Position numbers and translations under genes: made by a program | Notes under the pieces: model-generated | Databases searched by the model: none | What the model saw: only the letters and a program-made list of their open reading frames with translations | What the model was told of the DNA's origin: nothing | Shown here: piece after piece, positions 4,061-54,177 of the stretch | Layout: each line of letters opens with the position of its first letter | Position numbering within the stretch: the first letter of the stretch is position 1 | NCBI GenBank assembly: GCA_035533075.1 | Contig: DATLUO010000068.1 | Location: 1-64,000, forward strand | Length of the DNA stretch: 64,000 bases | Origin: Pirellulales bacterium | GTDB taxonomy: Bacteria > Planctomycetota > Planctomycetia > Pirellulales > JAICIG01 | Direction of reading: 5' to 3'

Positions 4061-4137
4061 CCTTGAAGTGGGCAATCATCCCGATTATTCGAGCAATGCA
4101 GTCGCCAATAGCAAAGCAGAAAAAAGCTGGTGCAGGA

Positions 4138-4639
4138 ATGTCTGACAAGGTTCAGCCTGTCTTCGAGCAGATCACTGGGCTGGTCGATGCGTTCTGCCGT
4201 GAGCATCTGAATGACGAATATGCCGAGCTATGCCGCAAGCTGACAGAGAAGCTCGCCCGGAAGCGACCTTCGCCATTGGTGAGCGGCAAGCCGACCACTT
4301 GGGCCTGCGGCATTGTGCGGCACGATTGGATGGGTGAACTTCCTCGACGACAACAGCAAAGATCCGCACATGAAGCTGACCGCCATCGACAAGGCATTCG
4401 GCGTCGGCGAAAGCACCGGCCAAGGCAAGTCGAAGGAGATTCGCACGATGCTAAGAATAAGGCCGATGGACCACCATTGGACGCCGCCGAGTCGGATGGA
4501 CGACAACATCATGGTTTGGATGCTGAACGTCAACGGGTTGGTGATGGACATTCGCCGTTGCCCCAGTTGGCCGATTATTTTAGCAATACTTTTGTCCGTG
4601 CGGCGAAGCAGCCCGCTGGCGTTCGTCGAGCTGCGGTGA
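4138..4639 (+). pseudogene. DUF6398 domain protein, frameshifted
   Basis: From the ATG of MSDKVQPVFEQI the protein reads as a DUF6398 domain (CREHLNDEYAELCRKLTEKL, RKRPSPL, TWACGIV). Near 4312-4322 the homology jumps to the next frame and continues as GWVNFLDDNSKDPHMKLTAI, FGVGESTGQGKSKEIR, a WTPPSRMDDN segment and WMLNVNGLVMDIR. One extra base (or two missing) would restore the frame. In the original frame the reading continues as a basic, low-complexity tail to 4773. Either the gene is dead or the base call is wrong. Confidence 0.65.
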
Positions 4640-4656
4640 GAAGTCGAAAAGATCCT

Positions 4657-5028
4657 GTCCAAGCCAACGGCGCGGTAGAACACAGGGAGCCACGTGCGCG
4701 GATGCCCGCAACCGATCCAACCCAAGCCAGTCGCGAGATAGAACACAAGAATGTTTCGGTTCCGAGCGGATGACGCTGGAAGCCCGCGCCGGAAACATAC
4801 CACCGCGGAACTACGAGATGATGGAATCCTTCGGGTTTTTCCCGTTAGTGCAAATTTGCACGAACGGGGCGGAACGGCATCCATCACGGCGGAGCGTGAT
4901 ACGCCGGGACGCGAAGCATGCCAAGCCAGTCGCGCGGTAGAACGGCAGCAAGACAGAAAGATTATCAGACAGAAAAAATGAGCGACGAAACCCCCAATCC
5001 AAAATCGAAAATCGACAATCCAAAATTG
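4657..5028. repeat. Mosaic repeat island I
   Basis: No gene is supported between 4640 and 5321. The stretch holds modules that recur elsewhere. Three copies of a CCAAGCCAGTCGCGCGGTAG-like unit lie at 4657-4686, 4721-4749 and 4921-4945. A 55-bp unit (4811-4865) contains the palindrome GTGCAAATTTGCAC and is about 90% identical, inverted, to 28965-29019. A hairpin ATCACG-GCGGAG-CGTGAT is at 4883-4900. A GACAGAAA...GACAGAAAAA unit is at 4952-4984. A heptamer run of ATCCAAA-type units occupies 4997-5028. Confidence 0.8.
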
Positions 5029-5321
5029 AAGCCCCGCCCCCCAGATTTATCGTTGCGGCGCCAAAATGAGCCGCCCGAGAATATCGGCGCAAAGCCCAGC
5101 GGGCCAAGGGCTCGCGGGCAGGGCAAACCGGACACGTGCGTTGTTTTTGACAAGGTTAAATATTTTATGACAAGGGTAATTCGAGGCCACCCAACCGCAC
5201 GTCGATGCGGAACCGGTCGCCTGGAGCGACCACCGCATCCAATCCTGGGACGCCCTCACCCGTCCCTCCCGGTGGCAGGCGGCGCGCAGCGCCGGCTCAG
5301 GTCTTTGACAATTTGGTAGAC

Positions 5322-6791
5322 TCACATCACCGCGAAGTAATTCTCCACCGCGAAGTCAAAGTTCTCGGCCGACATCACCGGCGTCTGCCCCTGGAAGTCG
5401 CAGAGATTCTTGATCTGCAACAGGAGGTCGCGCGGCTGGCAACAGCGGAAGGGGCGGTTGGCGTAGTGCGCGCGGACCAGGTGGTCGACCGCCTCTTCAA
5501 CGTAGACGAAGCCCATTTTCGGCGCAATGATGCGGAAAAGCTGCCGGAATTCTTCCTCCGTCGGATCGAGCACGTCGATCTTGTACGGAATCCGCCGCAA
5601 GAAGGCGTCGTCGACCAGGTCCTTCGGTTCGAGGTTGGTCGAAAAAATGACGAGCTGGTCGAACGGCACTTCGATCTTTTTGCCGTTCGGTAGGTTCAAA
5701 TAGTCGTACCGCTTTTCCAAGGGCACAATCCAGCGGTTCAACAGTTCGTCGGTGGTCATCCGCTGACGGCCGAAGTCGTCGATCACCAGCGTGCCGCAGT
5801 TGCTTTTCATTTGCAGCGGCGACTCGCAGATGTTCGTGGCCGAATTCACCGTCACCTCCAGCGACGACATGGTGAGTTCGCCGCCCACGACGATCGTCGG
5901 CCGCTTGATGCGGACCCAACGCTTGTCGATCTGCCGGTTGTCGATCAGCCCGTCGGCTTTCTCCAGCGGCATCTCTTCGTGGTTGCTGGGATCGAACAGC
6001 CGCAGGATTTCGCCCTCGACGCCCACGGCGCGGGGAATCCAGATGCAGTTGCCGAAGGCCCGTGTGATTCGCTCGGCGATGCTCGTCTTGCCGTTGCCCG
6101 CTGCCCCGTAGAGAAACATGCCCCGGCCCGAGTTGATGGCCGGGCCGAGCCGGGCCATCATGCGTTTGTTCAGCAGCAAGTCGGCAAACGCCCGGTCGAG
6201 ATCGGCCTGCGTGGGCCGCAGCCGGGTGAGCGATTGCGCCCGAACGCTGGCGGCGTAATCTTCCAGGGCGACCGGCGCGGAACCGAAGTAGGTGGAGTGG
6301 TCGGTGTAACGTCGGGCACGCTCGCGGCCGATTTCCGTGAGTTGGTACACATAGTCGTTCATCGGCGCCGTATCGCGATAAACGAGGAGTTGGTCGTTCT
6401 TGAGCTGGTGAAGATGGTCATCGACCAGCTTGAACGGCAGCCTGACCTGCGTCGCGGTCTCGCGTCCGCTGGCGGTGCCGTTGGCCAGCAGGAACTTCAT
6501 CACCAGGGCTTCGAGCAGGCCCTCGCTGACACGGGCTTCGCGCAGCGAGGCGGGCTCCAACGGCAGGAATTCGCCCGACGCCGGATCCGTCGTTTGGCTC
6601 GTTGCAGGCGATACAAGCTGCTTCACCCGGCCCAGGAGATCGTCGAGCTTCTTGTCGGCGGGCCGGTCGGCCTTGGGTGGCACGGTCGGCTTTTGCGGCT
6701 GTGTGGCCGCCAGAGCGGCCCAGGCATCGCCGGCGGATGAATCTTTGCCGATCAGGCTTTCCAGAAGGCTTTCGGGAGACGTTTCCGCCAT
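5322..6791 (-). CDS. AAA-type ATPase with N-terminal winged-helix-like region
   Basis: A 489-residue cytoplasmic ATPase. Walker A is GAAGNGKTS (229-237), Walker B is LVIDDFG (335-341), and a sensor-1-like IFSTN lies at 382-386, followed by [10 protein letters not shown] (398-407) with likely arginine-finger residues. Residues 85-160 look like a small helical domain ([15 protein letters not shown] to [16 protein letters not shown]). The first ~80 residues are low-complexity and Pro/Ala-rich. The domain resembles ATPases found near planctomycete pilus or secretion genes, but no such genes are adjacent here. It is transcribed divergently from the aconitase gene. Confidence 0.75.
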
Positions 6792-25798: not shown

Positions 25799-25816
25799 TC
25801 GGCACCCATAAACGGC

Positions 25817-25973
25817 GTAGGGTGGGACCAGCGAGCTTGCAAGCGCCGGCCCACGCGATTTTGGATTTTGGATTTTGGATTTTCGATTATGGTCAATCCA
25901 AAATCCAAAATCCAAAATCCAAAATTACGACGATGGTGGGCCGGCGCTCGCAAGCTCGCTGGTCCCACCCTAC
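25817..25973. repeat. Composite palindrome: hairpin-repeat arms around inverted heptamers
   Basis: The outer arms are two copies of the GTAGGGTGGGACCAGCGAGC repeat in opposite orientation (25817-25855 and 25935-25973). The inner arms are ATCCAAA-heptamer arrays of 32 bases each (25857-25888 and 25895-25926; 30 of 32 paired, 6-base loop). The whole 157 bp can fold into one long hairpin. Its right end supplies the TAG stop codon of the VWA gene. Confidence 0.95.
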
Positions 25974-28252
25974 ACAAGGCCCCACTTTTTTCTTAGAAAC
26001 CACTCTAACACCAACAAGCCGACAAAGCACAAAAAAAACTTCCAGTTGTCCCACAGCGTGTCCTTGGTCTGGGTTTCGATCTCCAACTCTTTCGTGCCCG
26101 CCTTGATCTCGTCCAGCAACCGCGGAAGCTGTTCGGGAGCCACGGTCTTGCCCGACGTCATGGCCGCCAGGCTTTCCAGAGAGCCTACGTCGGCCGCGGG
26201 ATTGTTGAGCTCCAGGTCCTGTTCGAACACGAGAAACCGGGCTTTGGCCGTGCCGATCGGTTGTTGCTCGCGGGCCGCTTCCACCACCAGAGTGTAATCG
26301 CCCACGGCTTGCGTTTCGAGCAACGTGCCCGAAAAGTGGCCTTTCGCCTCGCCATCCCGCCGCAGCCGCACGTTGATTTTTCGACCGTCGGGCGTCAACA
26401 CGTGGGCGTTGAACTGGGCGTCGGTGACCGGCTCGCCCTCGGCGGTTTCGGCGCCGACGGAAAAGTCGACCCGCGAGCCGGGCATGAAGCGCCGCTGGGC
26501 CAGCTTGATCTGCACGGCGCCTTCGGTCGTTTCGTCTTTGTGGGACAGCCACAGGATGACCTGCCGCCAAAACCGCTTGTGCTCGCTCTCGTGCCCCTGC
26601 ATCCACCACCGCCAGGTGCTGTCGCCGGCGAAGGCCAACACGCGGCCATTGCCATAATCGCCGGCCACCAAGAGAGGTTGCCCGCCTTGCGACTCAGCCA
26701 GCACGTTGGCCGTCGGCTTGAGTCCGCTGAAGCGGTTGGCCCCCGTCAGCGGCGGCAACCGGCTCCAGGCGCCCGCGTTGTCGCTCGACGAAAGCTGCAT
26801 CACGTACTGCCGCAGTCCCTGCTTCGCGGGCACCATCCGCAGCGGTCCCGGCAGGTGCAAGTCTTCGCGGACTTTTTCGCCGAAGTTCTGCCGTTCCAGC
26901 CGGTCGAACTCGATCGGCAACACATCGACCAGCGGCGTATTGCCGTAGCCGCCGGGTCCGAAGCTGTGCAGCCCGCCCAGCATCATGAAGCCCGCTCCGC
27001 GTTCGATGGCCTTGGTCAACGAATCGAGGTCTTCCGGCTTGAACACCTGCGAATCGAGGTCGCCGATGAGATAGACATCGTAGTTGCCGGCCACGAGCTT
27101 TTCGGCGAGATCGGCGGGCCGCGTTTGCGGTTTGTCGCCCCGAATCATGAGCGTCTCGACGTGGATGTCGGGCGACGTGTCGAGCGACCAGCGCAAGAAC
27201 TTCTGCTCGGCGGACCAATTCCCCTCGAGATACAGCACGTTCAGCCCACCGCTGCGCACGGTGACGAACGTGCTGATTTCGTTGTTCGTCGTCAGCAGCT
27301 CGCCGGGTTGCGGCGGCGCCTTGATCGTGACTTTGATCTCGCCGGGCACTTCCGGCACGTATTGCTGCTCAACCGTGATCCGCTCGCCGTCTTGTCGGGC
27401 CGTGATTTGCTTGGTGGCCACGACCTCCATTTTGCCGGGCGAGGTTTCCACCAACAATTGCACCGGCACGACCTGGTTCTCCAGGCCGTCCAAACGCACC
27501 GACGCGGACGCGAGTAGCGGGTTTTTGACGAACACGCCGCTGGGCACCGACAGCTCGTCGAGGGCCACGTCGCGCGTTTGACCGGGTCCGCGCCCCTGGC
27601 CGAACGGAACGGCATAAAGTCGATAACCGAGATCGGCCATCCGCCGCACGGGGATTTGCGGCGGCAGATCGCGCGGCGCGTAGGCCCGCTGGGCGCCGTC
27701 GCTCAGCAGGATGACGCCGGCCAGACGTTTGCCGGCCTGGGCCTTGAGCACCTGGTCCATCGACGAGCCGATGGCCGTTTGCACTCCGTCGGGCACGCCG
27801 CCCAGATCGAGCTTGCCCGGCTCATAATCGACCGCCCGTGCCTGTTCGTCGAACTCGTATACCCGGACTTCCAAATCCTTTGCCAGCTCGTCGAAGGCCG
27901 GCAGCGACTCTTTCAACGCGGCCTGGGCGGCGTCCCAGCGGCTTTTTTTGCCGACCATGTCGGTGACCAGCATGCTTCGCGAGTGGTCGAGCAGAACCAG
28001 CAGCGTGGCGGCCTGCTTGGTGATTTTGGTCCAGACGAGCGTCGGCCGCAGCATGGCGAAGATCACCAGCAGAATCACCAGCAGCCGCAGCAAGGCCAGC
28101 ACCGCGCGTCGGCGGCGGTTCGTCCGATCGCGGGCCGGGCCGAAAAACAACAGCGCCAGGAGCACGACGGCCAGCGGCACGACGAGCCACCATCCGAGGA
28201 TGGGAGCGATGGAAAGCCGCACGATATTGGTAGGAAGCGTCATCAGTTCCAT
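25970..28252 (-). CDS. VWA-domain membrane protein (planctomycete MoxR-associated type)
   Basis: From ATG 28252 the protein has 760 residues. Two membrane helices lie near the N-terminus (GWWLVVPLAVVLLALLFFG; LLRLLVILLVIFAML). A von Willebrand A domain follows with the MIDAS motif DHSRS (89-93) and a VILLSDGAQRA strand. The middle is a glutamine-amidotransferase-like fold with NVLYLEGNWSAEQKFLR and RGAGFMMLGGLHSFGPGGY. A C-terminal helix (FFLCFVGLLVLEWFL) ends it. Such proteins are usually encoded with MoxR and DUF58 proteins. Here MoxR is 4 kb away on the opposite strand. The stop codon lies inside a dispersed repeat. Confidence 0.8.
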   Translation of the reverse strand: MELMTLPTNIVRLSIAPILGWWLVVPLAVVLLALLFFGPARDRTNRRRRAVLALLRLLVILLVIFAMLRPTLVWTKITKQAATLLVLLDHSRSMLVTDMVGKKSRWDAAQAALKESLPAFDELAKDLEVRVYEFDEQARAVDYEPGKLDLGGVPDGVQTAIGSSMDQVLKAQAGKRLAGVILLSDGAQRAYAPRDLPPQIPVRRMADLGYRLYAVPFGQGRGPGQTRDVALDELSVPSGVFVKNPLLASASVRLDGLENQVVPVQLLVETSPGKMEVVATKQITARQDGERITVEQQYVPEVPGEIKVTIKAPPQPGELLTTNNEISTFVTVRSGGLNVLYLEGNWSAEQKFLRWSLDTSPDIHVETLMIRGDKPQTRPADLAEKLVAGNYDVYLIGDLDSQVFKPEDLDSLTKAIERGAGFMMLGGLHSFGPGGYGNTPLVDVLPIEFDRLERQNFGEKVREDLHLPGPLRMVPAKQGLRQYVMQLSSSDNAGAWSRLPPLTGANRFSGLKPTANVLAESQGGQPLLVAGDYGNGRVLAFAGDSTWRWWMQGHESEHKRFWRQVILWLSHKDETTEGAVQIKLAQRRFMPGSRVDFSVGAETAEGEPVTDAQFNAHVLTPDGRKINVRLRRDGEAKGHFSGTLLETQAVGDYTLVVEAAREQQPIGTAKARFLVFEQDLELNNPAADVGSLESLAAMTSGKTVAPEQLPRLLDEIKAGTKELEIETQTKDTLWDNWKFFLCFVGLLVLEWFLRKKWGLV

Positions 28253-28287: not shown

Positions 28288-28642
28288 TCACTCGATGATT
28301 TTATTGCCGAACAGAAGTCGGTCGATTTCGGCCAGCCGGAACTCGCGCCGCTTGCCGATGCTCTCGTTGACCAGCCGCATCAGGGCCTCGGCTTCGATGA
28401 ACACGACGCCGCGAATGGGCGTGCCGGTCATGAACCGGGCGAGCTTGTCGAGATCGTCGTGCCGGAAGCCGCGGCCGATGACGGCGAAATAGACGCGTTC
28501 GATACCCGATGCGGCCAATTCACGTGTGTGGGTCGTGGCGCAGGATGTGTTGTTCGTAGATTCCGCAATCGCGCTGGCTGGGCGGCCGTTCGTCCGCCGT
28601 CGTCCGGTTGGCAGGTGTCTGCGCCTTTTCTCGCTTGGGCAT
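28288..28642 (-). pseudogene. Disrupted small gene of unknown family
   Basis: From ATG 28642 (MPKREKAQTPANRTTADERP) the frame closes at PHT just after CGIYEQHILRHD. In another frame the protein continues as RELAASGIERVYFAVIGRGF, DDLDKLARFMTGTPIRGVVF and a helical end (EALMRLVNESIGKR, then EIDRLLFGNKIIE). The second part looks like a conserved alpha/beta tail and may resemble the end of restriction-endonuclease-like proteins, but I cannot assign it. The junction near 28520 suggests a frameshift. The end abuts the VWA gene. Confidence 0.4.
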
Positions 28643-28660
28643 GGTGTTGGGTTCTCCGAG

Positions 28661-28688
28661 GTTCAGGGTTCAGGGTTCAGGGTTCAGG
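28661..28688. repeat. Four copies of GTTCAGG (TGAACCC family, inverted)
   Basis: Four tandem GTTCAGG units are the reverse complement of the nine-copy array at 74-136. Confidence 0.9.
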
Positions 28689-28812
28689 GGGCCGGTTTGC
28701 TTGTGAAAAACAAGAATCAAGCGCGCCGTCTGGGCCATCTAAGTTGTTCGAGGCCCGTGGTTTGCGGCGATTCGAGGAAGCATCGACGCTGACTTGTACA
28801 AGCGCGGAACCA

Positions 28813-28955
28813 TCTGGCGGCTCTGTAGGGAACGCCCTCCGTGGCGTTCCGAGGTCTGGCGGCTCTGTAGGGACCGCCCTCCGTGGCGTTCCGAGGTCGT
28901 GCGGGTTGGCGCCGACCGCGCTGCGCGGAACGCCACAGAGGGCGTTCCCCACAGA
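28813..28955. repeat. 42-bp tandem pair plus inverted partial copy
   Basis: Two adjacent 42-bp units (28813-28854, 28855-28896) both contain TGGCGGCTCTGTAGGG and CGCCCTCCGTGGCGTTCCG and differ at about one base. An inverted partial copy (GCGGAACGCCACAGAGGGCG and beyond) lies at 28924-28955. No gene is supported. Confidence 0.85.
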
Positions 28956-28964
28956 GCGCTCCTC

Positions 28965-29426
28965 GTTCGTGCAAATTTGCACAAGCGAGAAAAACCCGAG
29001 GGATTTCATCATCTCGTAGCTCTGAAGAGGGGATGAGCGATGAGGCATGAGGGATGGCCAAAATAAAGTCGCGAGTTGGGCGTTGAGGGGCGTTCCGCGG
29101 TGGTCCGGTCCTGCCTTCTTGCACTTTACTCGCCGACTGGCTTGGGCACGTATCGTAGGCATCACGCTCCGCCGTGACGGAACCTTTCGGCCGCGGATGC
29201 TGACAGAAGAACTACCTGGCAGAAAAATGGGGAACGCGGCCGTCGAGCGAGGCGCCATTGGCTCATTTTTCTGTCAGGTGGTTTTTCTGTCATCCGTCTC
29301 TTTGAGCGCGGTTCATCCCTGCTGGCTCATCACTCATCTTGCACGGCCATTGGCTTGCATGGCTCTCGCGATGCGCTCGTCCACCGCTTGGCTGATTCCG
29401 GTCCCTCGTCTCTCATCCCTCATCTT
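28965..29426. repeat. Mosaic repeat island II
   Basis: This gene-free stretch carries inverted counterparts of modules in island I. The 55-bp GTGCAAATTTGCAC unit is at 28965-29019. Heptamers GGATGAG, CGATGAG and GCATGAG are at 29031-29051. A CCAAGCCAGTCG-like unit is near 29126-29145 (complement). The ATCACGCTCCGCCGTGAC hairpin is at 29161-29178. A GACAGAA...CAGAAAAATG unit appears in both orientations (29202-29231 and 29261-29291). CCCTC-type heptamers lie at 29401-29421. A diverged 55-bp unit follows at about 29509-29566. The remaining bases to 29689 show nothing else. Confidence 0.75.
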
Positions 29427-29689
29427 TATCCACGATTGCCTAATATATATGCACAAAAATAGCCGCATGCGTACAGATTAGGCAGTCGCGCGGATTGCCC
29501 TCCAAATAGGTACGAAATGCTAAAAAACGCCGTGTTTGACCGGCTATTGCAAATTTGCAAAAGCCGTGCGCCGAGGTGCCGCGCTGGACCGCCGCGCGGT
29601 TCGGCTGCTCAATTCTTAGGCACGCCAGCATGGCCGTAAAAGAGGGAAAAAACCCGGATAAAACGGATGGGCGTATTCTCGATGGCCGA

Positions 29690-40050: not shown

Positions 40051-40061
40051 AGTTTGGTGGG

Positions 40062-40197
40062 GTAAAGCTTCGCCGAACTCGGTACGCGGACCCCGTACAC
40101 CAACCCGAAGCGCCAGCGAGGAACGTGAAAAGGCGGCAAAACCTCGCTTGCGCTTCGGGTTAGTGTGAAAATGGGAACGGGTTCGGCGAAGCTTTAC
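40062..40197. repeat. Nested inverted repeat (CCCGAAGCG family)
   Basis: Outer arms are a perfect 17-bp inverted pair (GTAAAGCTTCGCCGAAC at 40062-40078; complement at 40181-40197). Inner arms, AACCCGAAGCGCCAGCGAGG at 40102-40121 and its complement at 40142-40161, differ at one base. The element can form a long cruciform. No coding function is seen. Confidence 0.9.
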
Positions 40198-51021: not shown

Positions 51022-51112
51022 GTAGGGTGGGACAAGCGAGTGGAACGAGCGTCAGTCCACCATCGCCCGCATTGGTGGGCCGGCGCTCGCAAGCTCGCTT
51101 GTCTTACCCTAC
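51022..51112. repeat. Inverted pair of dispersed hairpin repeats
   Basis: GTAGGGTGGGACAAGCGAG-type repeat at 51022-51061 (diverged in the middle) and its inverted partner at 51074-51112 are 12 bp apart. They form a palindrome in the intergenic region upstream of ndh. Confidence 0.85.
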
Positions 51113-51421
51113 ACGCAACGGATTCCGGGTCAATCCTGATGCGGGCCCATCTTCTCGTCACCGATGCAATAAAGGTATCACCAGCCAACACACAACGTCG
51201 CGGCGCGCGCTAGGAGACGGATTCCTCGACATCAGGGCAACGTTCTTCTCGGCTTCTTTTCGTGCAAACCACGGTCGTTCCTGCCCTGGTCGAAAGGCCC
51301 AGCCGAGCAACGACACTTTTGTCGCCGAATTCATGGGGCATCGATCAACCTGCTCGCGCGGTTGGGCGCGCCGGGGGAATGCCAGGCAACGAGGCCGGAC
51401 CTGCGCGGCGGCGAACCGGGG
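51113..51421. other. Intergenic stretch without recognisable genes
   Basis: Apart from the repeat pair just before it, no coding, RNA or repeat feature is supported here. Confidence 0.5.
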
Positions 51422-53532: not shown

Positions 53533-53958
53533 GTGATTGCTACGCCGCGGTTACTTGCTCTGAGGTTGTCTGTATCCGCTCGGCGAGCGGCGTGGCTCTG
53601 TTTTGCCGTGGCTTTGTGCTTGGCCGGGCCATCCCAGGTGGATGCGTCGTGCGGTGACTATGTCATGGTAGGCAGGCACGGCACGACCGTGGACGGACAC
53701 TTCGCCTCCCCGTCCGATTCGCATACGCCTTTAGCGCCTATGACCCGATGCCGAGGGCCGAACTGTCAGAGGCAGACCCCCGCGCCGACCGCTCCTTCGC
53801 GCGGTCTTGTCACGCTACGAACGATCGAGCGTGCCTGCGGGATCAGCACCTCTGACCGGCCAGCACTCGCAACGGCCTGGTTTATGGCCGATCGCACGCT
53901 CAAGCCGCTCGACGGTCATCATCTTCCCATCGAGCACCCTCCTCGGCCCCATGGCTAA
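53533..53958 (+). CDS. Small secreted protein with cysteine pairs
   Basis: From GTG 53533 the 141-residue product has a signal-like stretch (AAWLCFAVALCLAGPSQVDA) followed by SCGDYVMVGRHG and MTRCRGPNCQRQ, which contain conserved-looking cysteines. A TTG at 53485 is an alternative start. The role is unknown. The intergenic 53258-53532 holds no other feature. Confidence 0.55.
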   Translation: MIATPRLLALRLSVSARRAAWLCFAVALCLAGPSQVDASCGDYVMVGRHGTTVDGHFASPSDSHTPLAPMTRCRGPNCQRQTPAPTAPSRGLVTLRTIERACGISTSDRPALATAWFMADRTLKPLDGHHLPIEHPPRPHG

Positions 53959-53964
53959 AACATC

Positions 53965-54110
53965 GTAAGGTGGGACCAGCGGGCTTGCGAGCGCCGGCCC
54001 ACCGAGTTGAGGCCTCGGGTTTCAGGCGTCAGGACAAACTACTTGGTGCCTGGTGCCTGACGCAGAACGATGGTAGGCCGGAGCTCGCAAGCTCGCTTTT
54101 TCCACCCTAC
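53965..54110. repeat. Composite palindrome: hairpin-repeat arms around CCTGAYG heptamers
   Basis: Outer arms are opposite copies of the GTAGGGTGGGACCAGCG-type repeat (53965-54003 and 54072-54110). Between them CCTGACG-type units occur in both orientations (complement near 54022-54033; CCTGGTG and CCTGACG at 54049-54062). The architecture repeats that of 25817-25973 with a different heptamer inside. Confidence 0.85.
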
Positions 54111-54177
54111 GCCCGCGTGCAATCGTTCCTCCTCAGCTTTATACCAGCCTTCGGGGCCGCGCCAAACGGCGTCGTTG

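Follow-up and report, generated by a model that had tools for sequence, protein, structure and literature searches.

Rickettsia palindromic elements carry palindromic sequence in frame within protein-coding genes and also outside them. In ParB/parS partition systems a palindromic site can lie within the parB-like gene, as in Bacillus, where a parS is located inside spo0J, and neisserial intergenic mosaic elements and pneumococcal BOX elements form intergenic arrays of small repeated modules. The repeats described here, from a window of 64,000 nucleotides (the whole stretch of DNA that was analysed) belonging to a Pirellulales-like genome of 8.54 Mb in 296 contigs, resemble each of these systems in part. 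As in Rickettsia, palindromes occur in frame inside coding genes and elsewhere, but here they are concentrated at a single linker in a single gene family, and it is palindromy rather than sequence that is kept. A palindromic site within a parB-like gene is shared with the partition systems, but parS is one conserved sequence whereas the arms here vary freely and binding is putative. The arrays of small intergenic modules are comparable to the neisserial and BOX elements but consist of other modules, one of which appears to be a gene relic. Like MITEs, the main unit is short, non-coding and dispersed, and in G001, another genome of the same family, it is bounded by inverted repeats (AATCGNCGTAAGT...ACTTACGTCGATT) which are clear in several copies, whereas such TIR-like ends are only approximate in the source genome. 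REP/BIME sequences with RAYT/TnpA-REP (PMC3733652, PMC6006769) share the intergenic mosaics and the GTAG-tagged palindromes, one family of which flanks a Y1_Tnp gene here, but the main shared unit lacks the GTAG foot, has hypervariable arms and is apparently derived from a protein-coding gene.

Intergenic mosaics are already known, and the unexpected result is the palindrome in ParB-like genes that was reached via the shared module. A palindrome found across many lineages in the linker-coding part of a partition-type gene, indifferent to reading frame and still covarying once the gene is dead, would indicate that DNA structure itself is being acted upon. Whether palindromes are maintained by hairpin template-switching or by protein binding could be tested on this natural record, which is also relevant to the binding sites of phage ParB-like proteins. 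No prior description of the palindrome was found in the open-access literature, subscription journals being outside the scope of the search.

Two intergenic islands and their copies in the genome

An earlier note on this DNA had described two islands, island I at 4657-5028 and island II at 28813-29566, as sharing the same repeat modules in different order and orientation, and this observation is confirmed, all named modules occurring in both. The 55-bp GTGCAAATTTGCAC unit is inverted between the islands, 4808-4869 pairing with 28961-29022 over 62 nt at 89%. The ATCACGGCGGAGCGTGAT hairpin at 4883-4900, a GTAG-tagged REP-like palindrome with other copies also in G001, recurs inverted and with one change near 29160-29178, within the GTAG-tagged palindrome GTAGGCATCACGCTCCGCCGTGACGG at 29155-29180. 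The CCAAGCCA unit is present three times on the forward strand of island I (4659-4681, 4722-4744 and 4921-4943) and inverted in island II as the CCAAGCCAGTCGGCGAGTAAAGTGC unit at 29121-29145. The first two island I units, CCAAGCCAR...GATAGAAC/GGTAGAAC, enclose a hairpin (4659-4744) and match many loci of the genome with a best E of 1.6e-47, and the third, which also has genome matches, reads CCAAGCCAG...GGTAGAAC. GACAGAA...GACAGAAAAAATG at 4952-4983 on the forward strand is colinear in other copies and corresponds to an inverted pair of GACAGAA/CAGAAAAATG units at 29201-29292, which likewise has other copies, and the 13-mer ACCACCGCGGAAC at 4799-4811 is found inverted at 29092-29104. The heptamer arrays were also recovered (CCAAAATC and ATCCCTC), with CCAAAAT repeated at 4995-5027 in island I, and repeat detection locating GAACCCT at 28660-28689 and a heptamer-like ATCCCTC array at 29401-29436 in island II; heptamer arrays are frequent both in this genome and in relatives.

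Both islands are longer than had been proposed, island I covering 4575-5184 together with an end block to ~5325 and island II covering 28538-29672. The 3' third of a forward open frame with a DUF6398 domain (4063-4773; Pfam E 2.7e-19, residues 36-86) runs into island I, and repeated sequence starts at 4575, suggesting that the gene was truncated at the island junction at ~4560-4575. Colinear counterparts of the distal island I block (CCCCCCAGATTTA...TTTTTGACAAGG...GGTCTTTGACAA; 5028-5325, forward strand) lie at L032, L034, L036, L040, L041, L045 and L046. The 28538-28642 part of island II, on the reverse strand, is the 5' end of a small gene (MPKREKAQ...) that is itself repeated and adjoins other island II copies. 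A separate 181-bp repeated segment (28293-28473, 90% identity) adjoins island II; it also adjoins the island copies at L042 and L043, the L043 island being in the opposite orientation.

Both islands are patchworks of repeated DNA occurring throughout the genome. Pieces of island I match ~40 other places, and the similarity is far beyond chance, with genome-wide E-values of ~1e-70 to 1e-14 at dozens of loci. Thus, the sharing of modules held, but its restriction to two places did not, as dozens of related islands are present. The islands had further been interpreted as composites of small mobile or recombining parts, which is correct in that the parts are small and repeated genome-wide, and in that some are of a mobile type, REP families being of the kind moved by Y1/RAYT transposases, for which the genome contains 14 Y1_Tnp matches. 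Free reshuffling of the parts was not borne out, as larger colinear blocks recur. Island II is a ~1-kb block that is colinear at L042, L043, L047 and L050 with 79-95% identity and partly colinear with L048 and L049, and the island I type is colinear at about ten loci, indicating that most of the sharing results from whole blocks having been copied.

The genes flanking islands are diverse (GlnD, polyprenyl synthetase, sigma factor, amidohydrolase, Eco57I methylases and DUF7133 proteins), no common function was found among the neighbouring genes in the window, and placement and orientation relative to genes vary between copies. The islands are ordinary in kind, being mosaics in which REPs and short tandem repeats are mixed with gene relics, and the copies are probably without dedicated function.

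The shared module and ParB-like genes

In an alignment of copies of the shared unit, which is 55-62 bp long, a stem is followed by AAATTT, by the complement of the stem and then by AAACACGGCGTTTTT or similar. In the alignment of model R1, both sides of the stem changed in 82 cells compared with 28 after shuffling, and sliding the partner abolished the signal. R1 detects ~75 forward copies in the source genome and ~16 in G001, the sole other genome of the family that was searched, and over 296 genomes of the order strong matches occur only in these two, weak matches being mostly chance or coding. Only 4 of 392 genomes of the phylum contain the stem CCGGCAAATTTGCCGG, indicating that the palindrome is no widespread repeat of planctomycetes. 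No target-site duplications were seen by eye in the flanks of G001 copies.

The GTGCAAATTTGCAC unit is not a REP, and it is not a random repeat either. A 60-nt segment homologous to it lies in frame in intact ParB-like genes of the source genome and G001. R1, which was built without the intact ParB-like genes of the source genome, matches ParB-like open frames at L165 (contig C271), L167 (C107) and part of L168 (C257), together with a broken gene on C256, at 34-58 bits, and a G001 gene (C132) at 52.5 bits; E-values within ParB-like genes are 6e-11 to 9e-13 for three of four and 9e-6 for the fourth. On the coding strand the palindrome encodes T-x-x-(A/V)-N-L-x-x-P (P-V-G-V in C256) directly before LLNVSxRSV, and this palindrome-coded segment is predicted to form a disordered linker N-terminal to the helix-turn-helix. 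In an AlphaFold2 model of the G001 protein, built from eight sequences, residues 144-168, which cover most of the palindrome-coded stretch, are mostly at pLDDT <50 and lie between the N-terminal domain and the helix-turn-helix.

Assignment of the source gene to the ParB/RepB/Spo0J family follows from profile matches, TIGR00180 matching four of six members (best E 2.5e-6) and a PHROG ParB-like partition protein profile matching at 3e-10. PDB chains of Spo0J and Noc match the source proteins weakly (E 6e-5 to 1e-3), and the Pfam ParB model does not match them.

In the intergenic copies, ParB-like residues are interrupted by stops and frameshifts. They flank the palindrome on both sides in island translations, as at L034 (VAALLNVSARPVARASCVL, E 0.001), L148 (E 6e-4) and L037 (AARAKVLLKEQAA, E 3e-4). 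Within island I the shared module (4793-4869, forward strand, R1 69.5 bits) has the appearance of a decayed ParB-like linker on translation, reading TTAELRDDGILRVFPVSANLHERGG with the palindrome at 4841-4868, and a candidate ParB-like coding relic at 4571-4650 on the reverse strand, which represents the island I type in 5'-truncated form and aligns colinearly with other copies at 79-92%, reads QLDERQRAA...C*N, to be compared with HLNESQRAV. Within island II the inverted module (28961-29022, reverse strand, R1 69.8 bits) reads SELRDDEIPRVFLACANLHERGAL, and a second probable relic at 29465-29624 on the forward strand (R1 73.2 bits) contains a palindrome at 29541-29566 (IANLQKP) and, in a shifted frame, a decayed start of the helix-turn-helix, CTGCTCAATTCTTAGGCAC (LLNS*AR); the translated ParB-like match, spanning 29465-29620 with TGA and TAG, is weak (E 0.49). 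Combined, these results make it very likely that the module which drove the comparison of the two islands is a decayed piece of a ParB-like gene.

Linker palindromes in ParB-like genes and in non-coding copies

The occurrence of palindromes in ParB-like genes was surveyed at 34 relatives from a genome scan and 80 from a viral scan, 84 of 122 loci being parsed and 38 unparsed. As the genes were gathered by peptide patterns such as NLHRRHLN, they represent one part of the family and not a census. A palindrome, usually centred on AAATTT, is present at the linker in the majority of the ParB-like genes recovered, which come from viral contigs and several bacterial phyla, and occurs in all three reading frames with covarying arms and half sites of ~11 bp. 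Among 49 non-redundant genes the best linker palindrome has a mean score of 9.6, whereas the adjacent coding segments reach 3.9 and 4.4 and synonymous shuffles 4.6, and p<0.01 is reached individually in 29. When AAATTT alone serves as the anchor (34 non-redundant genes), positions 6-11 are each complementary in 29-32 genes versus 10-13 after shuffling, with AAATTT read as NL in 28, QIC in five and KF in one. Pairing beside AAATTT is 7.4/8 in the linker and 2.4/8 where AAATTT occurs at other positions of these loci. Fusion with a predicted DNA methyltransferase domain, recognised by a DPPW motif, is seen for many of the ParB-like domains that bear a palindrome (L227, L229-L237 and L244).

Distribution of the palindrome among relatives is patchy. 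No AAATTT linker palindrome was obtained for nine of ten plasmid or isolate-phage relatives, five of the nine being unparsed at the linker, and only S. medicae pMl3 has one. Plasmid relatives from Azotobacter (two) and Pseudomonas HS-18 and phage ppBeUSDA76-1 are without a linker palindrome, and in the unparsed pCAR1, two Stutzerimonas plasmids, P. amygdali p2 and phage AP1 the whole stretch lacks an AAATTT palindrome. This suggests that the ParB-like family in general needs no palindrome. Sites of the GCAAATTTGC pattern, which is blind to palindromes with G as the seventh arm base outside the core, were mapped in ten bacterial genomes; strong palindromy was reported in Brucella and Afipia for the in-gene copy alone, and in two Pleomorphomonas genomes that copy, with shorter arms, is the sole site reported. 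Other putative open frames also carry the palindrome (L364 and L374), although in-frame occurrences are mostly in ParB-like genes, and at L374, L378 and L339 several different AAATTT-centred palindromes are found per open frame or within ~250 bp. An Acidobacteria genome (JACQDI01) contains dispersed AAATTT palindromes with a similar stem at L395, L396, L398 and L399, of which at least L396 reads as a ParB-like relic, so that amplification like that observed in the window is also found in a second phylum.

Arm variation in the absence of coding capacity was followed in 26 non-coding copies which share a decayed helix-turn-helix 19-mer, copies identical over 60 bases being counted once and some neighbouring loci overlapping. 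Identity between copies is 91% in the 19-mer and 92% in the tail, but only 42% and 39% in the two arms. The five variable arm pairs are nevertheless complementary at 83%, compared with 42% when re-dealt and a maximum of 62% in 2000 re-deals, and fifteen copies with an identical 19-mer have twelve arm combinations. Thus, the arms vary faster than their surroundings, but they vary together. As a stop is shared by the copies, it is more likely that covariation continued after decay than that many paralogues with unlike arms decayed alike. We infer that a DNA-level process keeps the palindrome independently of the protein.

Explanations of the mosaics and their paired arms

We consider it probable that the dozens of intergenic mosaics consist of ParB-like gene fragments, REP palindromes and heptamer arrays in which the palindrome is kept at the DNA level. 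A ParB-like gene would decay, and transposition or recombination would place copies of its fragments, in blocks together with neighbouring REPs, at new intergenic positions, the palindrome being kept or rewritten as DNA. Descent would thereby run from gene to relic rather than from element into gene. Of the possible causes of arm covariation, self-templating ranks as the most likely, although with less than even weight, the palindrome extruding a hairpin whose arms would template each other in replication, and we advance it tentatively; selection for a symmetric protein site would be a close second, and an independent mobile palindrome is given about the same weight as the protein site. The wider proposal, that palindromes of ~22-28 bp in ParB-like coding sequence across phyla and phages, in any frame, have arms rewritten fast and together even in dead copies, through DNA-level self-templating or as a structure-selected element, is a serious possibility to which we give somewhat less than even weight.

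Alternatively, the palindrome may be an independent short mobile sequence, akin to a Rickettsia palindromic element or a REP, which enters ParB-like linkers in frame and also other sites, the islands being ordinary landing places. The occurrence of exact 22-mers in viral contigs beyond the ParB-like genes, the presence of two or three unlike palindromes in a single gene (L374, L378), the patchy distribution among relatives and the inverted repeats bounding the G001 unit are consistent with such movement. This alternative is nonetheless unlikely, since many copies in the source genome keep ParB-like flanks on both sides, the Brucella and Afipia in-gene copies stand alone as strong GCAAATTTGC palindromes, and simple transposition fails to explain arms that are wholly unlike between copies.

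The palindrome may instead be a cis site for the encoded ParB-like protein, a putative autoregulatory or parS-like site with its own specificity per copy such that the arms diverge together. The perfect dyad, including its centre, is more in keeping with a symmetric duplex site than with an RNA loop, and the ~11-bp half sites, the placement beside the helix-turn-helix and its sometimes being the only such site of the genome would fit binding by the protein. However, the arms still covary in non-coding copies which share the decayed helix-turn-helix, different palindromes occur within one linker, and several family members are without a palindrome, the plasmid relatives in particular lowering the parS-like reading, so that a cis site appears doubtful as the general explanation.

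As a further alternative, the islands could be REP/BIME-type mosaics and nothing else, with an incidental ParB-like resemblance. The literature on REPs and RAYTs (PMC3733652, PMC6006769) fits the GTAG-tagged REPs that flank a Y1_Tnp gene here. The GTAG foot tag is present in GTAGGGAACGCC...GGCGTTCC at 28813-28957 and in GTAGGCATCACG...CGTGA at 29155-29180, and is absent at the foot of the AAATTT palindrome. The former family, GTAGGGAACGCC-CTCCG-TGGCGTTCC, with two direct copies and one inverted in island II, surrounds the Y1_Tnp gene in L152 with five copies, three on one side and two inverted on the other, and other REP families adjoin Y1_Tnp loci L142, L150 and L154. In contrast to the REPs with a cognate gene, a dedicated RAYT for the AAATTT palindrome was not found, R1 matching at only one of the 14 Y1_Tnp loci. 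The R1 matches in ParB-like open frames, the ParB-like residues on both sides and the same linker position in unrelated organisms make an explanation by REPs alone very improbable. No RAYT gene was found adjoining the ATCACGGCGGAGCGTGAT palindrome, and the ATCACG REP family was not found beside Y1_Tnp among the 14 loci examined.

Structured regulatory RNAs or promoters of neighbouring genes, suggested by the covarying hairpins and by promoter-like TTGACA stretches in the distal block, are equally improbable, as Rfam matched only a tRNA, position and orientation relative to genes are inconsistent, and the centre of the palindrome is self-complementary, which an RNA loop does not need.

An integron attC reading of the GCGTCTAAC/GTTAGACGC motifs was dropped, no paired attC being seen. 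The window contains further repeats. The GTAGGGTGGGACCAGCG...CGCCGGCCCACC REP family occurs at 142-182, 25810-25976, 51022-51115 and 53958-54115, with copies flanking the Y1_Tnp match in L154, and another repeated stretch at 40061-40197, unrelated to the islands, has partners at six loci.
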